A stretch of DNA of 57,747 nt from contig JAHDDX010000008.1 in assembly GCA_020629135.1 (NCBI GenBank), positions 1 through 57,747 on the forward strand. The letters run 5' to 3'. Below, piece after piece: positions 968 through 30,404 of this stretch. Below the pieces are notes generated by a model. The model was not told the origin of the DNA. It searched no databases and saw nothing but the letters and a program-made list of their open reading frames with translations. The translations under genes and the position numbers were made by a program. This stretch comes from Hellea sp. Lineage in GTDB: Bacteria; Pseudomonadota; Alphaproteobacteria; Caulobacterales; Maricaulaceae. Positions within the stretch are counted from its first letter, which is position 1. Each line of letters starts with the position of its first letter.

Positions 968-2359
968 ATGAAACAGGTTAAACTTATAACAGCGTCAGTT
1001 CTGGCGCTTTCTACTATGGTCGCGTCTCCAGCCATGAGTAAGTCCTGGGTAGAAAAGGTTTCTCAGGAACGGGTCGTCACAAATGTTGTCAAAGATGATG
1101 TCATTGTCATGCGAACAGACCGTCCATTCAAAGAAATTCGCGTAGCCGACACCAAAGTCGCAGACGTGGTCGTTCTGACAAATCAGTCTTTTCATGTATT
1201 AGGTAAAACCGGCGGCAAAACCAATGTCATGCTCTATGACGAAAAAAACCATTTAATTGACATCATCGATGTGACTGTGGGCTTTGATTTACAGGCACTT
1301 AAAAAGAGCCTTTATGAGGCCTTCCCCAGTGAAAAAGTCGAAGTCCGTCCTATGGCCGGTGGAATTTACATGTCTGGTGACGTGACCAGTACAAAGGTCG
1401 CAGAGCGTGTCGAAAAAATCGCGCAGGCTTATGCGCCGGGTAAAGTCACCAATGCCTTATCTGTTCGAGACAGCCATCAGGTTATGTTGGAAGTTCGTTT
1501 TGTTGAGGCATCGCGCGATGTGGTTAAAGAACTTGGTATTGGACTTTTGACCCAAAAAGCCGGTGCCGGAGCCGGTGATCTAATTTTTGAATCTGGAGCC
1601 GGGCTGCTATCCGGCGGCATTCCAACTTTGTCCGGCGTATTACTTGGTGGCGTGGGGACAGCCTCTGTTGATACCCGAATTGACGCTTTGGAAGAGCAGG
1701 GCATTGTTCGGACACTCGCTGAGCCCAATCTTGTTTCTATGTCCGGGGATACGGCCAGCTTCTTGGCTGGCGGCGAATTTCCAATTCCGGTGGCCGCCGA
1801 TGAAGGTCAAATCACTATTGAATTTCGTCAGTTTGGGGTCGGCCTGGCCTTCACCCCAACTGTTTTGGATGACGGGATCATAAATCTCGAGGTCATGCCC
1901 GAAGTCAGCCAGATCGATAATACGAACGCGGTTCGGGTGGCGGGTGTCGAAGTGCCGTCGCTTCGCGTTCGCCGTGCCGATACAACGGTTGAACTCAGAA
2001 ACGCGCAGAGCTTTGCAATTGCCGGACTTTTACAAAATGAAACCTCAAACAGTAAGGCGCAGGTGCCCTGGCTGGGGGATGTGCCTGTTTTAGGGTCTTT
2101 GTTTCGGTCGAGCCGATATAAGAATTTTGAGACCGAGCTGGTTATTATCGTGACACCCAGACTGGTTCAACCTGCACCCGATATTTCTGACTTGCGGACG
2201 CCATTGGATGGTCTAACGGGACCGTCTGAAGCAGAGCAGTTTTTGCTCGGGCGGACCGAAGGTCAACCACAAATTTCAACATCAACACCGGACATTTCAG
2301 ATCGGGCGCTGGCAGATGCTGGCGGTCTGTCAGAAACATATGGATATGCGGTTCAATAG
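968..2359 (+). CDS. cpaC: Tad pilus outer-membrane secretin CpaC (RcpA)
   Basis: Forms the outer-membrane channel for the Flp pilus. From ATG 968 it is 463 aa with a signal peptide (first ~25 residues, ending in ...MASPAMS). A pilus-secretin N-terminal domain follows (about 35-105), then a BON-like segment (about 110-170), and the secretin beta-barrel domain (about 235-395), which carries the signature VPWLGDVPVLGSLFRS. The in-frame ATG at 944 lies inside cpaB and would add eight residues ahead of the signal peptide; ATG 968 has AGGGGG directly upstream and is preferred. Second gene of the operon, one base after cpaB. Confidence 0.94.
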   Translation: MKQVKLITASVLALSTMVASPAMSKSWVEKVSQERVVTNVVKDDVIVMRTDRPFKEIRVADTKVADVVVLTNQSFHVLGKTGGKTNVMLYDEKNHLIDIIDVTVGFDLQALKKSLYEAFPSEKVEVRPMAGGIYMSGDVTSTKVAERVEKIAQAYAPGKVTNALSVRDSHQVMLEVRFVEASRDVVKELGIGLLTQKAGAGAGDLIFESGAGLLSGGIPTLSGVLLGGVGTASVDTRIDALEEQGIVRTLAEPNLVSMSGDTASFLAGGEFPIPVAADEGQITIEFRQFGVGLAFTPTVLDDGIINLEVMPEVSQIDNTNAVRVAGVEVPSLRVRRADTTVELRNAQSFAIAGLLQNETSNSKAQVPWLGDVPVLGSLFRSSRYKNFETELVIIVTPRLVQPAPDISDLRTPLDGLTGPSEAEQFLLGRTEGQPQISTSTPDISDRALADAGGLSETYGYAVQ

Positions 2360-24957: not shown

Positions 24958-26439
24958 ATGGCGAAACAAAAAAAACCACAAAGACCCAAAGCGCGACGTC
25001 CGCGCGGCTTTGAGGATCGCCCGGCCAATATATTGCGGGCCGAGTGGCGATTGGTTCAATCAGCCTATGCCGTCTATGATAGTTACGGTTTTGAGCCCTT
25101 GCAAACGCCGGCTTTCGAATTTGCGGATGTACTCGGTAAATTTCTGCCAGATGAGGACCGGCCAAATACCGGCGTTTTTGCCCTCCGTGATGATGACGAA
25201 CAGTGGTTATCCCTGCGATATGACCTCACGGCACCTCTGGCCCGTTATGTAGCCGAAAATTTTGATGCCTTAGCTAAACCTTTCCGCCGTTATCAATCTG
25301 GCAGCGTATATCGCAATGAAAAACCGGGCCCCGGACGGTTTCGTGAATTTGTTCAATGCGATGCGGATAGTGTCGGCGCCGCTAGTTCGGCAGCAGATGC
25401 TGAAATGATCATGATTGCCGCGGATGTCATGAAGGCGGCGGGATTGACTGACGGACAATATGCGATCCGCGTCAATAACCGTAAATTACTTGATGGAATT
25501 TTGGAGCAATCCGGAGTTCCGAATACGGATGCAGGGGCGGAGCAGCGATTAAAAGTGCTTCGGGCGATAGATAAATTGGATCGCCTGGGTGAAGACGGTG
25601 TGGAAGCCTTGCTCGGTGAAGGTCGAAAAGACGATAGTGGCGATTATACGGAAGGTGCGAAATTATCGGCGTCCGGTATAAAAGCGGTATTAGGCTTTAC
25701 CGTCGCCAGCGACCCTGACCGCGGTAAAACCATTGCTAATCTTGAAAAACTGGTTGGGCAATCCGGCCGGGGCAATGAAGGCTGTCAGGAACTGACCGAC
25801 ATTGACGCGCTTCTAAATGCAACAGGATTTGGCCCGGACCGGGTTGGTTTTGACACCTCCATTGTCCGCGGCCTTGGATATTATACTGGCCCGGTATTTG
25901 AAGCGGAACTGCTGGCGGATATTAAAGACAAAAAAGGACGTCCGGTGCGTATTGGATCTATTGGCGGCGGTGGACGCTATGATGATTTGGTTTCTCGGTT
26001 CCGAGGACAACCCGTTCCGGCAACCGGCTTTAGCTTTGGGGTTTCACGGTTCTTATCGGCCTTAGAACGCATGGATGTTATGCTATCGGAAACACAGGCC
26101 CCTGTGATGATCTGCGCCTTTGATCGGAACCTAATGTCCGAATATTTCAAAATGGCGGCCGAATTACGGGCGCATGATATCCGGGCGGAAGTTTTTGTCG
26201 GGTCGGGTAATATTACCAAGCAAATGAAATATGCGGATCGTCGCGGTGTCAAATTGGCGGTGCTCATGGGCAGCGATGAATATGACGCCCAGACCGTTAC
26301 CCTGAAAGACCTGGTTCTGGGCGCGGAAATGGCGAAAGCGATCTCGTCCAATGAGGAATGGAAGTCATCCAGGCCGGCTCAATCGACCATTTCGCGAATT
26401 GATTTTGTCAGCGAAATCAAAAAAGCTTTAGACGCATAA
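24958..26439 (+). CDS. hisS: Histidyl-tRNA synthetase
   Basis: 493-aa class II synthetase. Motif 1 region is RPRGFEDRPANILRAEW, motif 2 is FRRYQSGSVYRNEKPGPGRFREFVQCD. The histidine-specific motif is VRGLGYYTGPVFEA, and motif 3 contains GGGGRYDDL with SFGVSRF. The C-terminal anticodon-binding domain covers about 395-493. ATG 24958 follows an AGACGC context without a strong Shine-Dalgarno. The stop codon lies within the A-tract of the downstream hairpin. Confidence 0.95.
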   Translation: MAKQKKPQRPKARRPRGFEDRPANILRAEWRLVQSAYAVYDSYGFEPLQTPAFEFADVLGKFLPDEDRPNTGVFALRDDDEQWLSLRYDLTAPLARYVAENFDALAKPFRRYQSGSVYRNEKPGPGRFREFVQCDADSVGAASSAADAEMIMIAADVMKAAGLTDGQYAIRVNNRKLLDGILEQSGVPNTDAGAEQRLKVLRAIDKLDRLGEDGVEALLGEGRKDDSGDYTEGAKLSASGIKAVLGFTVASDPDRGKTIANLEKLVGQSGRGNEGCQELTDIDALLNATGFGPDRVGFDTSIVRGLGYYTGPVFEAELLADIKDKKGRPVRIGSIGGGGRYDDLVSRFRGQPVPATGFSFGVSRFLSALERMDVMLSETQAPVMICAFDRNLMSEYFKMAAELRAHDIRAEVFVGSGNITKQMKYADRRGVKLAVLMGSDEYDAQTVTLKDLVLGAEMAKAISSNEEWKSSRPAQSTISRIDFVSEIKKALDA

Positions 26440-26605
26440 AAAAACCGGTGCCGAAGCACCGGTTAAAGCTCGGTATCGGACTGCGAGTGGGGGCATCGTG
26501 CAGTCAAAACGTTCCGAAACGGGGTAATTCGTCAGGGGGTACGACTCAGTTTCCCGTTAAGGCCTTTATGACCTGTCGGACCTAACCGCTTAATTTCCGT
26601 TAGGT
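26438..26605 (-). ncRNA. Candidate hairpin-rich small RNA
   Basis: A 321-bp gap separates hisS from the next gene. Read on the minus strand, four stem-loops follow one another: 26581-26604 (CCTAAC/GTTAGG), 26518-26558 (AACGGG/CCCGTT with inner TCGT/ACGA), 26479-26505 (GACTGC/GCAGTC) and a terminator hairpin 26443-26464 followed by T7. The two middle loops present C5 runs (ACCCCC, GCCCCCA), as in sRNAs that pair with G-rich ribosome-binding sites. A TTGATC-N17-TACAAG promoter lies immediately upstream. About 165 nt expected. No known Rfam family is recognised; 6S and SRP RNA motifs are absent. No open frame of significance exists in this strand. Confidence 0.55.
26443..26464 (-). terminator. 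Minus-strand intrinsic terminator
   Basis: Stem AACCGGTGC - loop TTCG - GCACCGGTT on the minus strand, followed by T7 that runs into the complement of the hisS stop codon. On the plus strand the hairpin is followed by AAAGC with no T-tract, so it favours the minus direction, though it may also slow plus-strand read-through from hisS. Confidence 0.75.
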
Positions 26606-26618
26606 TACAAGCTTGTAA
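26605..26618. promoter_or_regulatory. Perfect 14-bp palindrome overlapping the small-RNA promoter
   Basis: TTACAAGCTTGTAA is a perfect dyad covering the -10 element of the proposed minus-strand promoter and ending one base before the first RNA hairpin. Its position suggests an operator for a dimeric regulator; no specific factor is identified. Confidence 0.45.
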
Positions 26619-26640
26619 TTTAGACAAAAAAATAGATCAA
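26612..26640 (-). promoter_or_regulatory. Putative promoter of the small RNA
   Basis: On the minus strand TTGATC (26640-26635), 17-bp spacer, TACAAG (26617-26612). Predicted transcription start about 26605, at the first base of the first stem-loop. Confidence 0.45.
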
Positions 26641-26760: not shown

Positions 26761-28074
26761 TTGAAATATTTTTTCGCGCAGGACATTTGTAAATTGGTTT
26801 TCGGAATTTCGACTCTTACGTTGATGGGCGCTTTACCGGCAACGGCTCAAACGTCTCTGGATAATAATGTGCCTGTCACATTGACTGGCTCTAAAGGATC
26901 ACAAACACAGTTTTCGATTACCTTGCCCGATGGCGCATCGGATCTGACGGTTGCAACTAATGGCGGCAGTGGAGATGTCACGCTTTATGTCAATGCAGGT
27001 TCAACGGCGACAACCACTTCATATGATTGCCGTTCAGCCAGTCGCGGCAATAATGAAAGCTGTTCTTTCTCCGGCGATCAAAGCGGTACCTTTTACATCA
27101 TGATCGAAGCTGTGAGGGGGTTTAAAAACACGACTTTGACAGCCAGTTTCACCGATGTTGTTGCGCCGCCGCCGCCGCCGCGGCCTTTTGATGTCAGCAA
27201 AATCGCTGGAATTGGCGATTCGATCACCCGGGCTTTTGGGGCGGATTGTACAGGCAATGTCTGGTTGTGGGATCTGGCCTGTCTCCTGGAAGGGGATCAA
27301 CCCTATCACTCCTGGTTTGATGGGAGTTCTGGGAATGTGAACAGTGTGCATGACAAATTCAAAGCGCTCAATGACACAATTTCCGCCAATAAAGACGCAT
27401 CAGAGTCAGGCGCGGAAATGCTGGGTATTGGAAATTCCAATCGAAATTTCTTCGATCAGGCTAATGTCGTTGTTTCGCAATCTCCGGTCGCTGACCATGT
27501 CGAAATTATCCTTGGCGGAAATGATATCTGTAATCGCGATTGCACGAGTGCCCGCAATTGCAATGATCCACTTTATTCAGAGAGTGAATGGCGCGGGGCT
27601 GTTCAGGCAGGCATGGACGTTTTGATGAGCGGCATGCCCGAAGGCGGGACAGTGGTTATCGGATCAGTCCCAAAGGTTCAAAACCTGCGAGCGGCTGGTT
27701 TGGCGAAAGAAGACGGGGTGTTTGGTATTGATTGTCAGGCTATGTGGTCGACTTATGACGTCTGCCGGATCGTGACAGCAGGTGGACGTTATAACAGCGA
27801 ACGGGTCAGCAAACGCCATGACGGCGTCGCTTCAGCGCAGCGGCTTTATAACCAGGTCCTTCGAGAAGAAGCAGAAGCCTATAACAGTAATGCGAATGGT
27901 AAAAACCCGCGTGGCATTGAAGTTGTGGCGGAATATGTGGATGAGGTTACGCCGAGCGCCGGGACCTTTGATTTCACCGATTCTCATATCAATGGAGGGG
28001 ATTGCTTCCATCCCAATGTGGCGACACAATCAACCATTGCTGATTTTATGTGGACGGCTAATCCTGAAAAGTAG
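26761..28074 (+). CDS. Secreted SGNH/GDSL-type esterase with an N-terminal PPC-like domain
   Basis: 437 aa. TTG start with a strong GGGGAGG five bases upstream. Signal peptide of ~30 residues ending at PATAQT. A bacterial pre-peptidase C-terminal-like beta domain (about 35-130; FSITLPDGASDLTVATNGGSGDVTLYVNAG, CSFSGDQSGTFYIMIEA) is followed by a short polyproline linker (APPPPPRP). The SGNH domain has block I GDSITRAFG (Ser at about 154), block III GGNDIC, and a C-terminal Asp/His pair in DSHINGGDCFHPN. Several cysteines suggest disulfides, so it is exported, probably an esterase on polymer-linked or lipid esters. Ends in its own terminator. Confidence 0.87.
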   Translation: MKYFFAQDICKLVFGISTLTLMGALPATAQTSLDNNVPVTLTGSKGSQTQFSITLPDGASDLTVATNGGSGDVTLYVNAGSTATTTSYDCRSASRGNNESCSFSGDQSGTFYIMIEAVRGFKNTTLTASFTDVVAPPPPPRPFDVSKIAGIGDSITRAFGADCTGNVWLWDLACLLEGDQPYHSWFDGSSGNVNSVHDKFKALNDTISANKDASESGAEMLGIGNSNRNFFDQANVVVSQSPVADHVEIILGGNDICNRDCTSARNCNDPLYSESEWRGAVQAGMDVLMSGMPEGGTVVIGSVPKVQNLRAAGLAKEDGVFGIDCQAMWSTYDVCRIVTAGGRYNSERVSKRHDGVASAQRLYNQVLREEAEAYNSNANGKNPRGIEVVAEYVDEVTPSAGTFDFTDSHINGGDCFHPNVATQSTIADFMWTANPEK

Positions 28075-28117: not shown

Positions 28118-28129
28118 GAGTTGAGAATC

Positions 28130-29566
28130 ATGCGAATTTTTACGGTCCTGATTGTGATATTGCTAGCGGCCTGTTCGCGGCAAAGCGCTGAGTCACCCCC
28201 TATACCAGATCAAAAGACACCGGGTCACGATATCGCCGCGCGGATCAATGGTCAGCCGATCACGTTGGAAGTTGTCGACCGTACAATTGAGCTCGGGCTC
28301 TACGACCTTGAATGGCAAAAATATCAACTCAGGCGGGCCAGCTTAAACCGGCTGGCTGGGGACCAGCCCGGCAAGATAGAAATATTACTTGAGCCACCGG
28401 TGCCGCCACGACTTAGTATAGACTATGATAACCGCCCCATACGCGGACGAACCGACGCGCCAGTTCGGATCGCAGCATTCTGCAGCTATCAATCCAGTCA
28501 TTGTGTGCGCCTGCAGCCGAAATTGGCCGCTTTGCGTGAAGCCTATAAGGATCAATTATCTGTCGCCTATTTTGACTTCCCGCAGGGCTTTCACCGTTAT
28601 GGCATTGACGCCGCTCTGGCGGTACGTTGTGCGTCCGAGGTCAAGCCGAACTGGGACTATCTGGATTCTGTTTTTGGCGCGACCGATGATCTGAACTTTC
28701 GCCGTTTTGAGCTTCTGGCGCGGCAAACCAGAACTGATCCGGCTCAGTTTAAGGCTTGTTTTGACGAACGACGCTATGTCGATCTGATCAAAGCTGATAT
28801 CGCCTTTAGCCAGTCGCTCGGTTTTAACAGCGTGCCGATCGTTTTGATCAATGGACTTTATATTCGCGGGCCAAAGCCCTTGGCGACCTATCAATTTTAT
28901 ATAGATCAAGAACTCGACCGATTAGGTGTTTCCCATAATGAAAACACTAAGGCGGTTTTGACTAAGCTCCCGCTCAAGCTCACAGCCGTTATTGAGGCGC
29001 GTGAAAACACGGCGGTGATCGAAGACATGCCTACAAAAGAGTCCAATAGCTACAAGGTGGGGGAGGCGGTTTTAGAAGGCGTGATGTTGATTGGGATTGA
29101 GCCTGACAGGGTGTTTTTGGACAATGACGGGGTGTTGGAATTTCTACCATTGTCAGATGAAGAGACGATCACAGACGATAGCGTCTTTGTGCCTGAAGGG
29201 ATTGGCCGGGATAGGGTGCGGGGTGTTGATGGGGGCGCTATCAATCGGGATAAATCCGAAATTGCCCTATCGCGGGCCTGGTTAAGTGACCATTTACGCG
29301 ACGAATCGGCTTTAACCCAGTTTCTTTATAAAGGGGATCACAAACCCAGCGGGTTTCATGTTTTGAAGCTGGCGGATGTTGAGGGAAATGAATTTTATGA
29401 GACGCTGGGATTTCGCACGGGTGATGTCATCTTGCAAGTCAATGACGAATGGATTCATGAGGGGCAAAACCCGCTATGGAATGAACTTCGTTTTTCAGAC
29501 AATATCGAACTTAAACTGATGCGTCGCGGCCAACCCGTAACCTATTACTATAAAATCGGTGACTAA
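28130..29566 (+). CDS. Lipoprotein fusing SurA-N-like, thioredoxin-like and PDZ/GspC-like regions
   Basis: 478 aa from ATG 28130 (TTG 28121 would add three residues). Lipoprotein signal VILLAAC. Residues ~35-75 resemble the N-terminal helices of SurA-type chaperones (ARINGQPITLEVVDRTIELGLYDL). Residues ~95-265 are a DsbA/Thioredoxin_4-like fold ending with NSVPIVLINGLYIRG (cis-Pro region SVP). At the active-site position the sequence reads CSYQSSHC; the CxxC nucleophile aligns with Ser, so classical disulfide exchange is doubtful. Residues ~310-478 resemble a GspC homology region plus PDZ-like domain (LADVEGNEFYETLGFRTGDVILQVND). Function is unknown; an envelope quality-control or secretion-linked role is inference. 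Confidence 0.72.
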   Translation: MRIFTVLIVILLAACSRQSAESPPIPDQKTPGHDIAARINGQPITLEVVDRTIELGLYDLEWQKYQLRRASLNRLAGDQPGKIEILLEPPVPPRLSIDYDNRPIRGRTDAPVRIAAFCSYQSSHCVRLQPKLAALREAYKDQLSVAYFDFPQGFHRYGIDAALAVRCASEVKPNWDYLDSVFGATDDLNFRRFELLARQTRTDPAQFKACFDERRYVDLIKADIAFSQSLGFNSVPIVLINGLYIRGPKPLATYQFYIDQELDRLGVSHNENTKAVLTKLPLKLTAVIEARENTAVIEDMPTKESNSYKVGEAVLEGVMLIGIEPDRVFLDNDGVLEFLPLSDEETITDDSVFVPEGIGRDRVRGVDGGAINRDKSEIALSRAWLSDHLRDESALTQFLYKGDHKPSGFHVLKLADVEGNEFYETLGFRTGDVILQVNDEWIHEGQNPLWNELRFSDNIELKLMRRGQPVTYYYKIGD

Positions 29567-29589
29567 CGGATAGGCCTTTCCAAAAAAAA

Positions 29590-29607
29590 GCCCCGCCGGA
29601 GCGGGGC
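29590..29607. terminator. GC-rich hairpin with A-tract on its left side
   Basis: GCCCCGC - CGGA - GCGGGGC, 24 bp after the lipoprotein stop. It is preceded by A8 on the plus strand but followed by AGTATAAAG. A U-tract therefore exists only for minus-strand transcripts; it may still act as a 3' end for the plus-strand gene. Confidence 0.6.
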
Positions 29608-29705
29608 AGTATAAAGAGAGAGACAACTCATCAAATTGACAAGTTGACTGCTTCTACGGATAAGTGGCTGAATATTAGCTGAATGAAAAAATTCCGGACC
29701 CTATA

Positions 29706-30404
29706 ATGAGCCAAGCCCCTGAAATACCAATAAAAATCAAAATTATCCCCGTTACGCCGTTTCAACAAAATTGCAGTTTGATTTGGCATAGCGAGACCAT
29801 GGAAGGCGTTTTGGTCGATCCCGGAGGGGATGTTGAACGAATTTCCGAGGTGATCGCTGAAAATAAGGTGAAACTGGTCGAGATCTGGCTGACCCACGGA
29901 CATCTGGATCATGCGGGCGGCGCGAAGGATATTAAAGCCAGTTTTGACGTGCCGATTATTGGGCCACACAAAGATGATCAGTTCTGGCTCGATATGATTG
30001 AGCAAAGCTGGGCGCAATATGGCCATGCAGGGTTAGGCAAAAATGTTACGCCCGACCGATATCTGGAGGACGGCGAAGAACTAACCCTGGGTGGTGTGAA
30101 ATTTGACGTTGTGCATACACCGGGTCATACGCCGGGGCATGTCGTGATTTATAATCAGGACATGAAACTCGCCTTTGTCGGTGATGTATTATTCCGTGGC
30201 TCAATTGGCCGTACGGATTTCCCCAAAGGGGATCACGCCACGCTAATTAAAAGTATCAAAGACAAGCTGTGGCCACTCGGCAGCGATATGCGGTTCATTC
30301 CGGGACATGGCCCGATGAGCACTTTTGGCATGGAACGGGCCGATAATCCCTTTGTGGGTGATAAGGTGACAGACGTCGCGCCGAATATTGGCGGCGTCAT
30401 GTAA
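29706..30404 (+). CDS. MBL-fold metallo-hydrolase (glyoxalase II-like)
   Basis: 232 aa. Zinc-binding motif LTHGHLDHAGG (HxHxDH), downstream metal ligands in HTPGHTPGHV and FVGDVLFRGSIGRTDFPKGD, and the final His in IPGHGP. The N-terminus PVTPFQQNCSLIW is typical of the YcbL-like/type II glyoxalase subgroup with Zn/Fe sites. The ATG coincides with a TATAAT string that I regard as chance because the start codon is fixed by family length. Ends directly against the convergent phhB stop. Confidence 0.9.
   Translation: MSQAPEIPIKIKIIPVTPFQQNCSLIWHSETMEGVLVDPGGDVERISEVIAENKVKLVEIWLTHGHLDHAGGAKDIKASFDVPIIGPHKDDQFWLDMIEQSWAQYGHAGLGKNVTPDRYLEDGEELTLGGVKFDVVHTPGHTPGHVVIYNQDMKLAFVGDVLFRGSIGRTDFPKGDHATLIKSIKDKLWPLGSDMRFIPGHGPMSTFGMERADNPFVGDKVTDVAPNIGGVM

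Follow-up and report, generated by a model that had tools for sequence, protein, structure and literature searches.

Based on folding, promoter architecture and comparison with related genomes, we propose that the window (the whole stretch of 57,747 nucleotides of Hellea sp. DNA analysed here) encodes on its minus strand, facing the 3' end of hisS, a trans-acting RNA of ~120 nt which is under OmpR/PhoB-type control and whose C5 loops mask the ribosome-binding sites of outer-membrane mRNAs. We put the probability of this reading at roughly two in three. An OmpR/PhoB-type response regulator acting on three 11-bp repeats (26610-26582) would probably drive transcription from a -10 box at 26570-26565, and the transcript, terminating at 26438, would present C5 runs in two hairpin loops that most likely base-pair with the G-rich ribosome-binding sites of mRNAs for outer-membrane proteins, thereby blocking translation. 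The RNA would be part of a small-RNA cluster that relatives named Hellea, Robiginitomaculum and other Caulobacterales have between hisS and a gene of the metallo-beta-lactamase (MBL) fold. The structure, the terminator, the agreement with the promoter boxes, the covariance-model homology and the complementarity of a same-locus sister RNA to TonB-receptor mRNAs were computed; transcription, the identity of the regulator, and the targets of the window RNA and their repression are what we infer. The window RNA is probably genuine, with a known class of mechanism, and of a family that Rfam lacks at threshold; it would add a small-RNA locus of this kind to the Caulobacterales.

Structure and promoter of the predicted RNA

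The elements of the predicted transcription unit are as follows.

26582..26610, minus strand: three direct repeats with 11-bp spacing (TTGTAAC, CGGAAAT, CGGTTAG), a PhoB/OmpR-type box array 5' of the -10
26565..26570, minus strand: predicted -10 hexamer CATAAA, placed by eye 11 nt past the third repeat, as in six relatives
26438..26558, minus strand: predicted small RNA of ~120 nt, its start deduced from the -10 box and its end set at the U-tract
26518..26558, minus strand: hairpin 1, from folding, with loop GTACCCCCTGAC at 26542-26531
26479..26505, minus strand: hairpin 2, from folding, with a GACTGC/GCAGTC stem; it carries ATGCCCCC, with loop ACGATGCCCCCACTC at 26499-26485
26438..26464, minus strand: intrinsic terminator AACCGGTGCTTCGGCACCGGTT followed by a T run, extending as far as the hisS stop codon

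As judged from the fold and its coordinates, both hairpins, 26558-26518 and 26505-26479, hold a C5 run in the loop. The minus strand of the 125-nt stretch 26562-26438 folds with -38.7 kcal/mol, against -28.7 +/- 3.45 for shuffled sequences (z -2.90, with 2 of 200 shuffles as good), and the plus strand of 26435-26640 reaches a z of only -1.15 against its shuffles. The first-pass annotation had read four consecutive stem-loops here, in a transcript of ~165 nt ending in a minus-strand terminator with U7 that no minus-strand gene could supply. The terminator is present at 26464-26438, and no minus-strand gene is evident as its source, since the neighbouring hisS, GDSL esterase gene and thioredoxin-like ORF all lie on the plus strand. 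The two C5-loop hairpins are likewise real, but the first stem (26604-26581) coincides with the promoter repeats and is probably not RNA, and the second, a weak one, overlaps the predicted -10. For these two reasons the RNA probably starts near 26558, and the longer estimate was misassigned: two C-rich hairpins and a terminator, ~120 nt in all (26558-26438), are what the sequence probably encodes.

The promoter was also probably misassigned. The letters of the TTGATC-N17-TACAAG element first suggested are present at 26640-26612, but it is weak, with 8 of 12 consensus bases, and is absent from the promoter scan list, which needs 9; the true promoter would rather be the 11-bp repeats with CATAAA. 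Repeats of this spacing are typical of the OmpR/PhoB family. When a promoter matrix derived from six relatives was run with spacers masked, 26610-26582 ranked first among 115,438 window positions (15.2 vs 12.9 for the next); with spacer letters counted it ranked second. PhoB itself is a plausible candidate for the regulator. CTGTCAT-like repeat pairs occur in 5 of 7 pst-upstream stretches of relatives (counted without a chance control), no site stood out when seven pst loci were scanned with the triple-box matrix, and pstC was not found in the organism's own assembly, which is 84.83% complete.

Predicted small RNAs between hisS and the MBL-fold gene

The surroundings of the predicted RNA contain the following features.

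24958..26439, plus strand: hisS, its 3' end faced by the small-RNA terminator
26761..28074, plus strand: GDSL esterase with a PPC domain, which together with the next ORF sits between two small RNAs
28121..29566, plus strand: thioredoxin-like (Thioredoxin_4) protein with a T2SSC match
29582..29655, minus strand: conserved type 1 CU-rich small-RNA candidate (GAGUUGUCUCUCUCUU, then a terminator), upstream of and divergent from the MBL-fold gene
29668..29684, minus strand: a pair of ATTCAG repeats, spaced 11 bp, on the 5' side of this companion RNA, with similar repeats in relatives
29706..30404, plus strand: MBL-fold (Lactamase_B) ORF, which in relatives bounds the small-RNA cluster on its far side

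The hisS protein has as its nearest named matches metagenome-assembled genomes called Hellea, Robiginitomaculum and Caulobacterales, with 80% identity at best. We compared 56 hisS-downstream stretches from eight genera, our own included and the distant-genus loci L023-L031 set aside; 34 of the 56, all from relatives, reach the MBL-fold gene. A type 1 letter pattern occurs beside that gene in 21 of the 34 relatives' loci, and a type 2 pattern in 10 of the 34, both counts being of letter patterns only, with terminator presence outside the criterion. For the type 1 companion in the window, the held-out covariance model R3 returned 29583-29655 of the minus strand with 59.1 bits (E 1.4e-12; E-values of the R1, R2 and R3 models are rough).

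A third type was found in six of the eight genomes of the sister genus g13 that were examined. It lies on the minus strand and consists of three 11-bp repeats, a -10, hairpin 1 (with the loop ACCCTC in 4 of the 6), a C5-loop hairpin 2 and a terminator, and it is placed directly behind hisS in three of these genomes and farther on, beside the MBL gene, in the other three. The window RNA has the same strand and lies in the same interval, with two genes between it and the type 1 RNA. Comparison of hisS downstream regions, proposed as a check with the first-pass annotation, produced a similar RNA in six sister-genus relatives but nothing comparable in six same-genus genomes. The latter are among nine from the genus in which the stretch between hisS and the MBL gene was inspected; one further contig ends too soon, G003 has at the hisS 3' end an RNA built as hairpin, ACACCCCCUUUAAU and terminator, and G006 has a C-rich hairpin there. 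Model R2 gives the G003 and G006 RNAs ~11 bits each, near chance, and R1 (described below) has no match to the C-rich hairpins of either.

A minus-strand intrinsic terminator lies within ~50 nt of, and faces, the hisS 3' end in L003, L095, L097, L098, L111, L112 and other loci of the family, and this recurrence marks the hisS/MBL interval as an apparent hot spot for small RNAs. Among the matches listed from the open-licence literature there was no account of a small-RNA locus between hisS and the MBL gene.

A predicted sister RNA complementary to TonB-receptor starts

The type 2 RNA comprises a small hairpin, CCCCTTCGAACTGG or a close variant of it, and a terminator, and its CCCCUUCGAACUGG is the exact complement of TonB-receptor ribosome-binding sites. 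Searching 137 family genomes with the pattern CCCCTTYRAACTGG gave 52 matches in 33 of them, compared with 7 for the backwards control. Among the 30 loci fetched for the target survey (L128-L157), 15 ORFs start shortly past a complementary site; in 13 the N-terminus is signal-peptide-like and the site precedes the start codon by 6-9 nt, and the other two look like chance. A TonB Plug domain was present in 13 of 13 ORFs (L130-L133, L138, L139, L143, L145, L150, L151, L155-L157) in a domain test that left out the ORFs of G010, G069, G086 and G136. Further, RNA and leader match within single genomes: G010, G021, G069, G072, G086 and G091 each hold the RNA together with an exactly matching leader site, in G071 the two differ by one G-U-compatible base, and in G136 the CCCCTTCAAACTGG of the RNA finds its matching complement in a receptor-like leader, so that one base change is common to both (L280, L281). 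Given the complementarity to 13 Plug-domain starts and these matched pairs, it is very probable that the type 2 RNA covers the ribosome-binding sites of receptor mRNAs. With the shared base change in one genome, RNA and sites form a directly testable RNA-target pair.

Further copies of CCCCTTCGAACTGG were seen in L134 (G068), L135 (G069), L287 (G070) and L292 (G021). At L134, L287 and L292 the copy comes after a GC-rich inverted repeat, GCGGGATGCGAC...GTCGCGTCCCGC, and perhaps belongs to another small RNA or a leader.

By extension from the type 2 RNA, the C5 loops of the window RNA should pair with G-rich starts, and by this analogy the window RNA may also mask translation starts of outer-membrane genes. 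Two candidate targets emerged, neither of which convincingly beats its controls. One is a secretin:

968-2356, plus strand: secretin with Secretin and pilus-formation N-terminal domains, start region GTCAGGGGGATAGCATG

We take this protein to be CpaC. Loop 1 pairs with its start at -28.3 kcal/mol, the best duplex among 305 candidate starts in the window; another window site reaches -30.7, and in 2000 trials with shuffled loops 0.55% attained -28.3. The G5 run of the secretin start overlaps the end of the upstream ORF and is missing in 7 of 12 relatives. The other candidate is the start of the TonB receptor L169, one of 22 receptor starts of the organism's own genome that were picked by a purine-run rule (one of 23 Plug matches was dropped, having no usable start). 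AGGGGA occurs in 10 of the 22, and one start, that of L169, gives -23.8 with a loop of the window RNA, a value equalled by shuffled loops in 13 of 500 trials.

These figures bear on a rival reading in which the small RNA is genuine but its C5 loops bind a regulatory protein or are sponged by a G-rich RNA. It would sit well with the window RNA's targets being candidates only, and with the C5 loop of the relatives, for which seven genomes gave no clear target excess (80 one-mismatch matches vs 65 for the reversed control). Caulobacter also offers a precedent, the sponge CrfA, which pairs with the C-rich core of the small RNAs SisA-D (excerpt of PMC12559287). The exact complementarity of a sister RNA from the same locus to TonB-receptor ribosome-binding sites argues against this rival, and we consider it rather unlikely. 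Nothing in ten genomes matches the G003 RNA core exactly except that RNA itself, and one-mismatch matches number 24 vs 22 for the reversed sequence.

Masking of outer-membrane translation starts, the preferred reading, can be widened to the locus as a whole. The hisS/MBL interval may be a fast-evolving cassette of up to three unlike tandem terminated RNAs driven from OmpR/PhoB-type boxes, each with its own C- or CU-rich seed directed against ribosome-binding sites and co-evolving with different outer-membrane targets, the window RNA being the two-loop form that pairs with, e.g., the secretin at 968 or a TonB receptor. We hold this view tentatively, at somewhat less than even odds. The locus offers a natural series for studying the co-evolution of RNA seeds and targets.

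Homology, competing readings and known small RNAs

Model R1 is a covariance model of the six sister-genus type 3 RNAs, promoter included, from which the window sequence was held out. Up to E 10 it has a single match in the window, at 26440-26610 of the minus strand, with 25.1 bits (E 3.3e-4, rough as above) over the full length of the model (1-180 of 180). Most of these bits come from the promoter, the RNA part without it scoring 5.2, and homology to the type 3 RNAs therefore rests mainly on promoter and position, with matching RNA anatomy. As a control, 244,894 bases from 34 hisS loci of other genera gave no match above 19.6 bits, a score that covered just the terminator part, and none above 12.0 over the full length. 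Across 33 further loci the six training loci gave 128-186 bits and the next best was a type 2 RNA at 21.7; two g9 loci that look alike by eye (L106 and L109) had no R1 match. The line that R1 draws between types 2 and 3 is not sharp, and since the RNA part of the window sequence reaches 5.2 bits on its own and a type 2 RNA reaches 21.7, its assignment to type 3 rather than to a sister type is uncertain.

The six relatives themselves show covariation: 10 pairs are altered on both sides (as many in 4 of 500 shuffles), there are 16 such cells (0 of 500), and 87.6% of cells are paired, compared with 81.8% in shuffles (none of the 500 that high) and 41-47% when the structure was slid as a control, keeping in mind that the tested structure was drawn from these same sequences, which favours such support. 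For hairpin 2 alone, in four sequences, covariation is weak (a single double change, a number matched in 243 of 500 shuffles). The loop CUUACCCCCAGCCCAGA of four type 3 members is absent from the window RNA, which has only the C5 run in common with it; since two training members also depart from this loop, it does not define the group. The type 2 core CCCCTTYRAACTGG has no exact match in the organism's own genome, and model R2 gave no match at the window RNA.

A second rival holds that the repeats serve as regulatory sites for the divergent GDSL esterase gene (26761) and that the hairpins are a terminator plus chance folds. The repeats do lie ~150 bp upstream of the GDSL start, and the low R1 score of the RNA part on its own would fit. 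R1 nevertheless aligns end to end on the window RNA; in the six relatives the same array stands upstream of a terminated minus-strand RNA with no GDSL gene beside it; and the closest two GDSL relatives within the genus (L063, L064) showed no shared element in their upstream regions. We regard this rival as improbable.

An Rfam search found no family at gathering score for the window RNA, and the covariance-model check proposed with the first-pass annotation produced the held-out R1 match but no known family. Membership in a known family was rejected, the only Rfam matches being four weak ones, the best of which, PhotoRC-I, lies on the terminator with 19.5 bits where the gathering score is 45. 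DNA searches outside the organism's own genome returned short stretches only, the best at E 0.006, on the terminator, among the matches listed in at least 61 genomes (own included), and the best at E 0.012 in the 137 family genomes (own included). The short matches inspected looked by eye like coding sequence or chance, and conservation at this level was discarded; phages and plasmids gave no DNA match. A disused, decaying remnant of a small-RNA gene would be compatible with this lack of DNA-level conservation in the genus, but hairpins, loops, repeats, -10 spacing and terminator all look intact, and we think such decay very unlikely.

A relative of GsrN or CcsR, or else a new family, had been suggested at the outset; the former is unsupported by Rfam, promoter, CTCC motif and neighbours, and the latter fits the comparative evidence. 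The CcsR/cuckoo RNAs have C-rich loops proposed to bind G-rich sites, a CCUCCUCCC motif and a DUF1127 (CcaF1) neighbour. CCUCCUCCC is absent here, as is any CTCC in the stretch, and the immediate neighbours are hisS and the GDSL esterase gene, not DUF1127. The sigma-T/EcfG promoter motif is GGAAC-N15-19-CGTT, of which there is no instance in 26760-26541 of the minus strand, and GsrN was set aside. GsrN itself, as described in an excerpt of PMC5869019, has a sigma-T-dependent promoter, usually lies near GSR genes, raises katG expression and pairs with mRNA leaders through a C-rich loop, in which the window RNA would resemble it; the BLASTn homologs of GsrN are limited to Caulobacteraceae, with further Rhizobiaceae candidates by position. 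A new family of C-rich-loop small RNAs fits by reason of the held-out R1 match, the hisS/MBL position and the same-locus sister RNA complementary to receptor sites.

SisA-D (alphaR8) of Caulobacter are, in the excerpted text of PMC12559287, short terminated RNAs whose anti-ribosome-binding-site stretch is rich in C; one of them, SisA, pairs with a TonB-receptor mRNA 5' of the start codon and thereby represses it, and sisA-D are there said to share no promoter motif and to lie at an FGase gene. The window RNA is likewise short and terminated with a C-rich stretch, but its C runs lie in hairpin loops, at the hisS/MBL locus and behind 11-bp promoter repeats. It was not assigned to this family, as it lacks the core UUUCCUCCCU and has no Rfam family at gathering score. 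ChvR, also of Caulobacter, is controlled by ChvI, represses a TonB-dependent receptor and lies between CCNA_00157 and CCNA_00158 (recF) (excerpt of PMC6237742). The window RNA would be akin to it if response-regulator control holds; its location differs, and its repeat is not the proposed ChvI motif TTGC-N3-GCAA (excerpt of PMC9731502). Were our reading true, a response regulator would be tied to outer-membrane remodelling, as with ChvR, SisA and OmrA/B elsewhere. The enterobacterial OmrA/OmrB, at the aas-galR locus, are a tandem pair under response-regulator control that lowers outer-membrane proteins (excerpt of PMC12559287); they share nearly identical 5' ends, whereas the tandem RNAs of the hisS/MBL locus are unlike each other.
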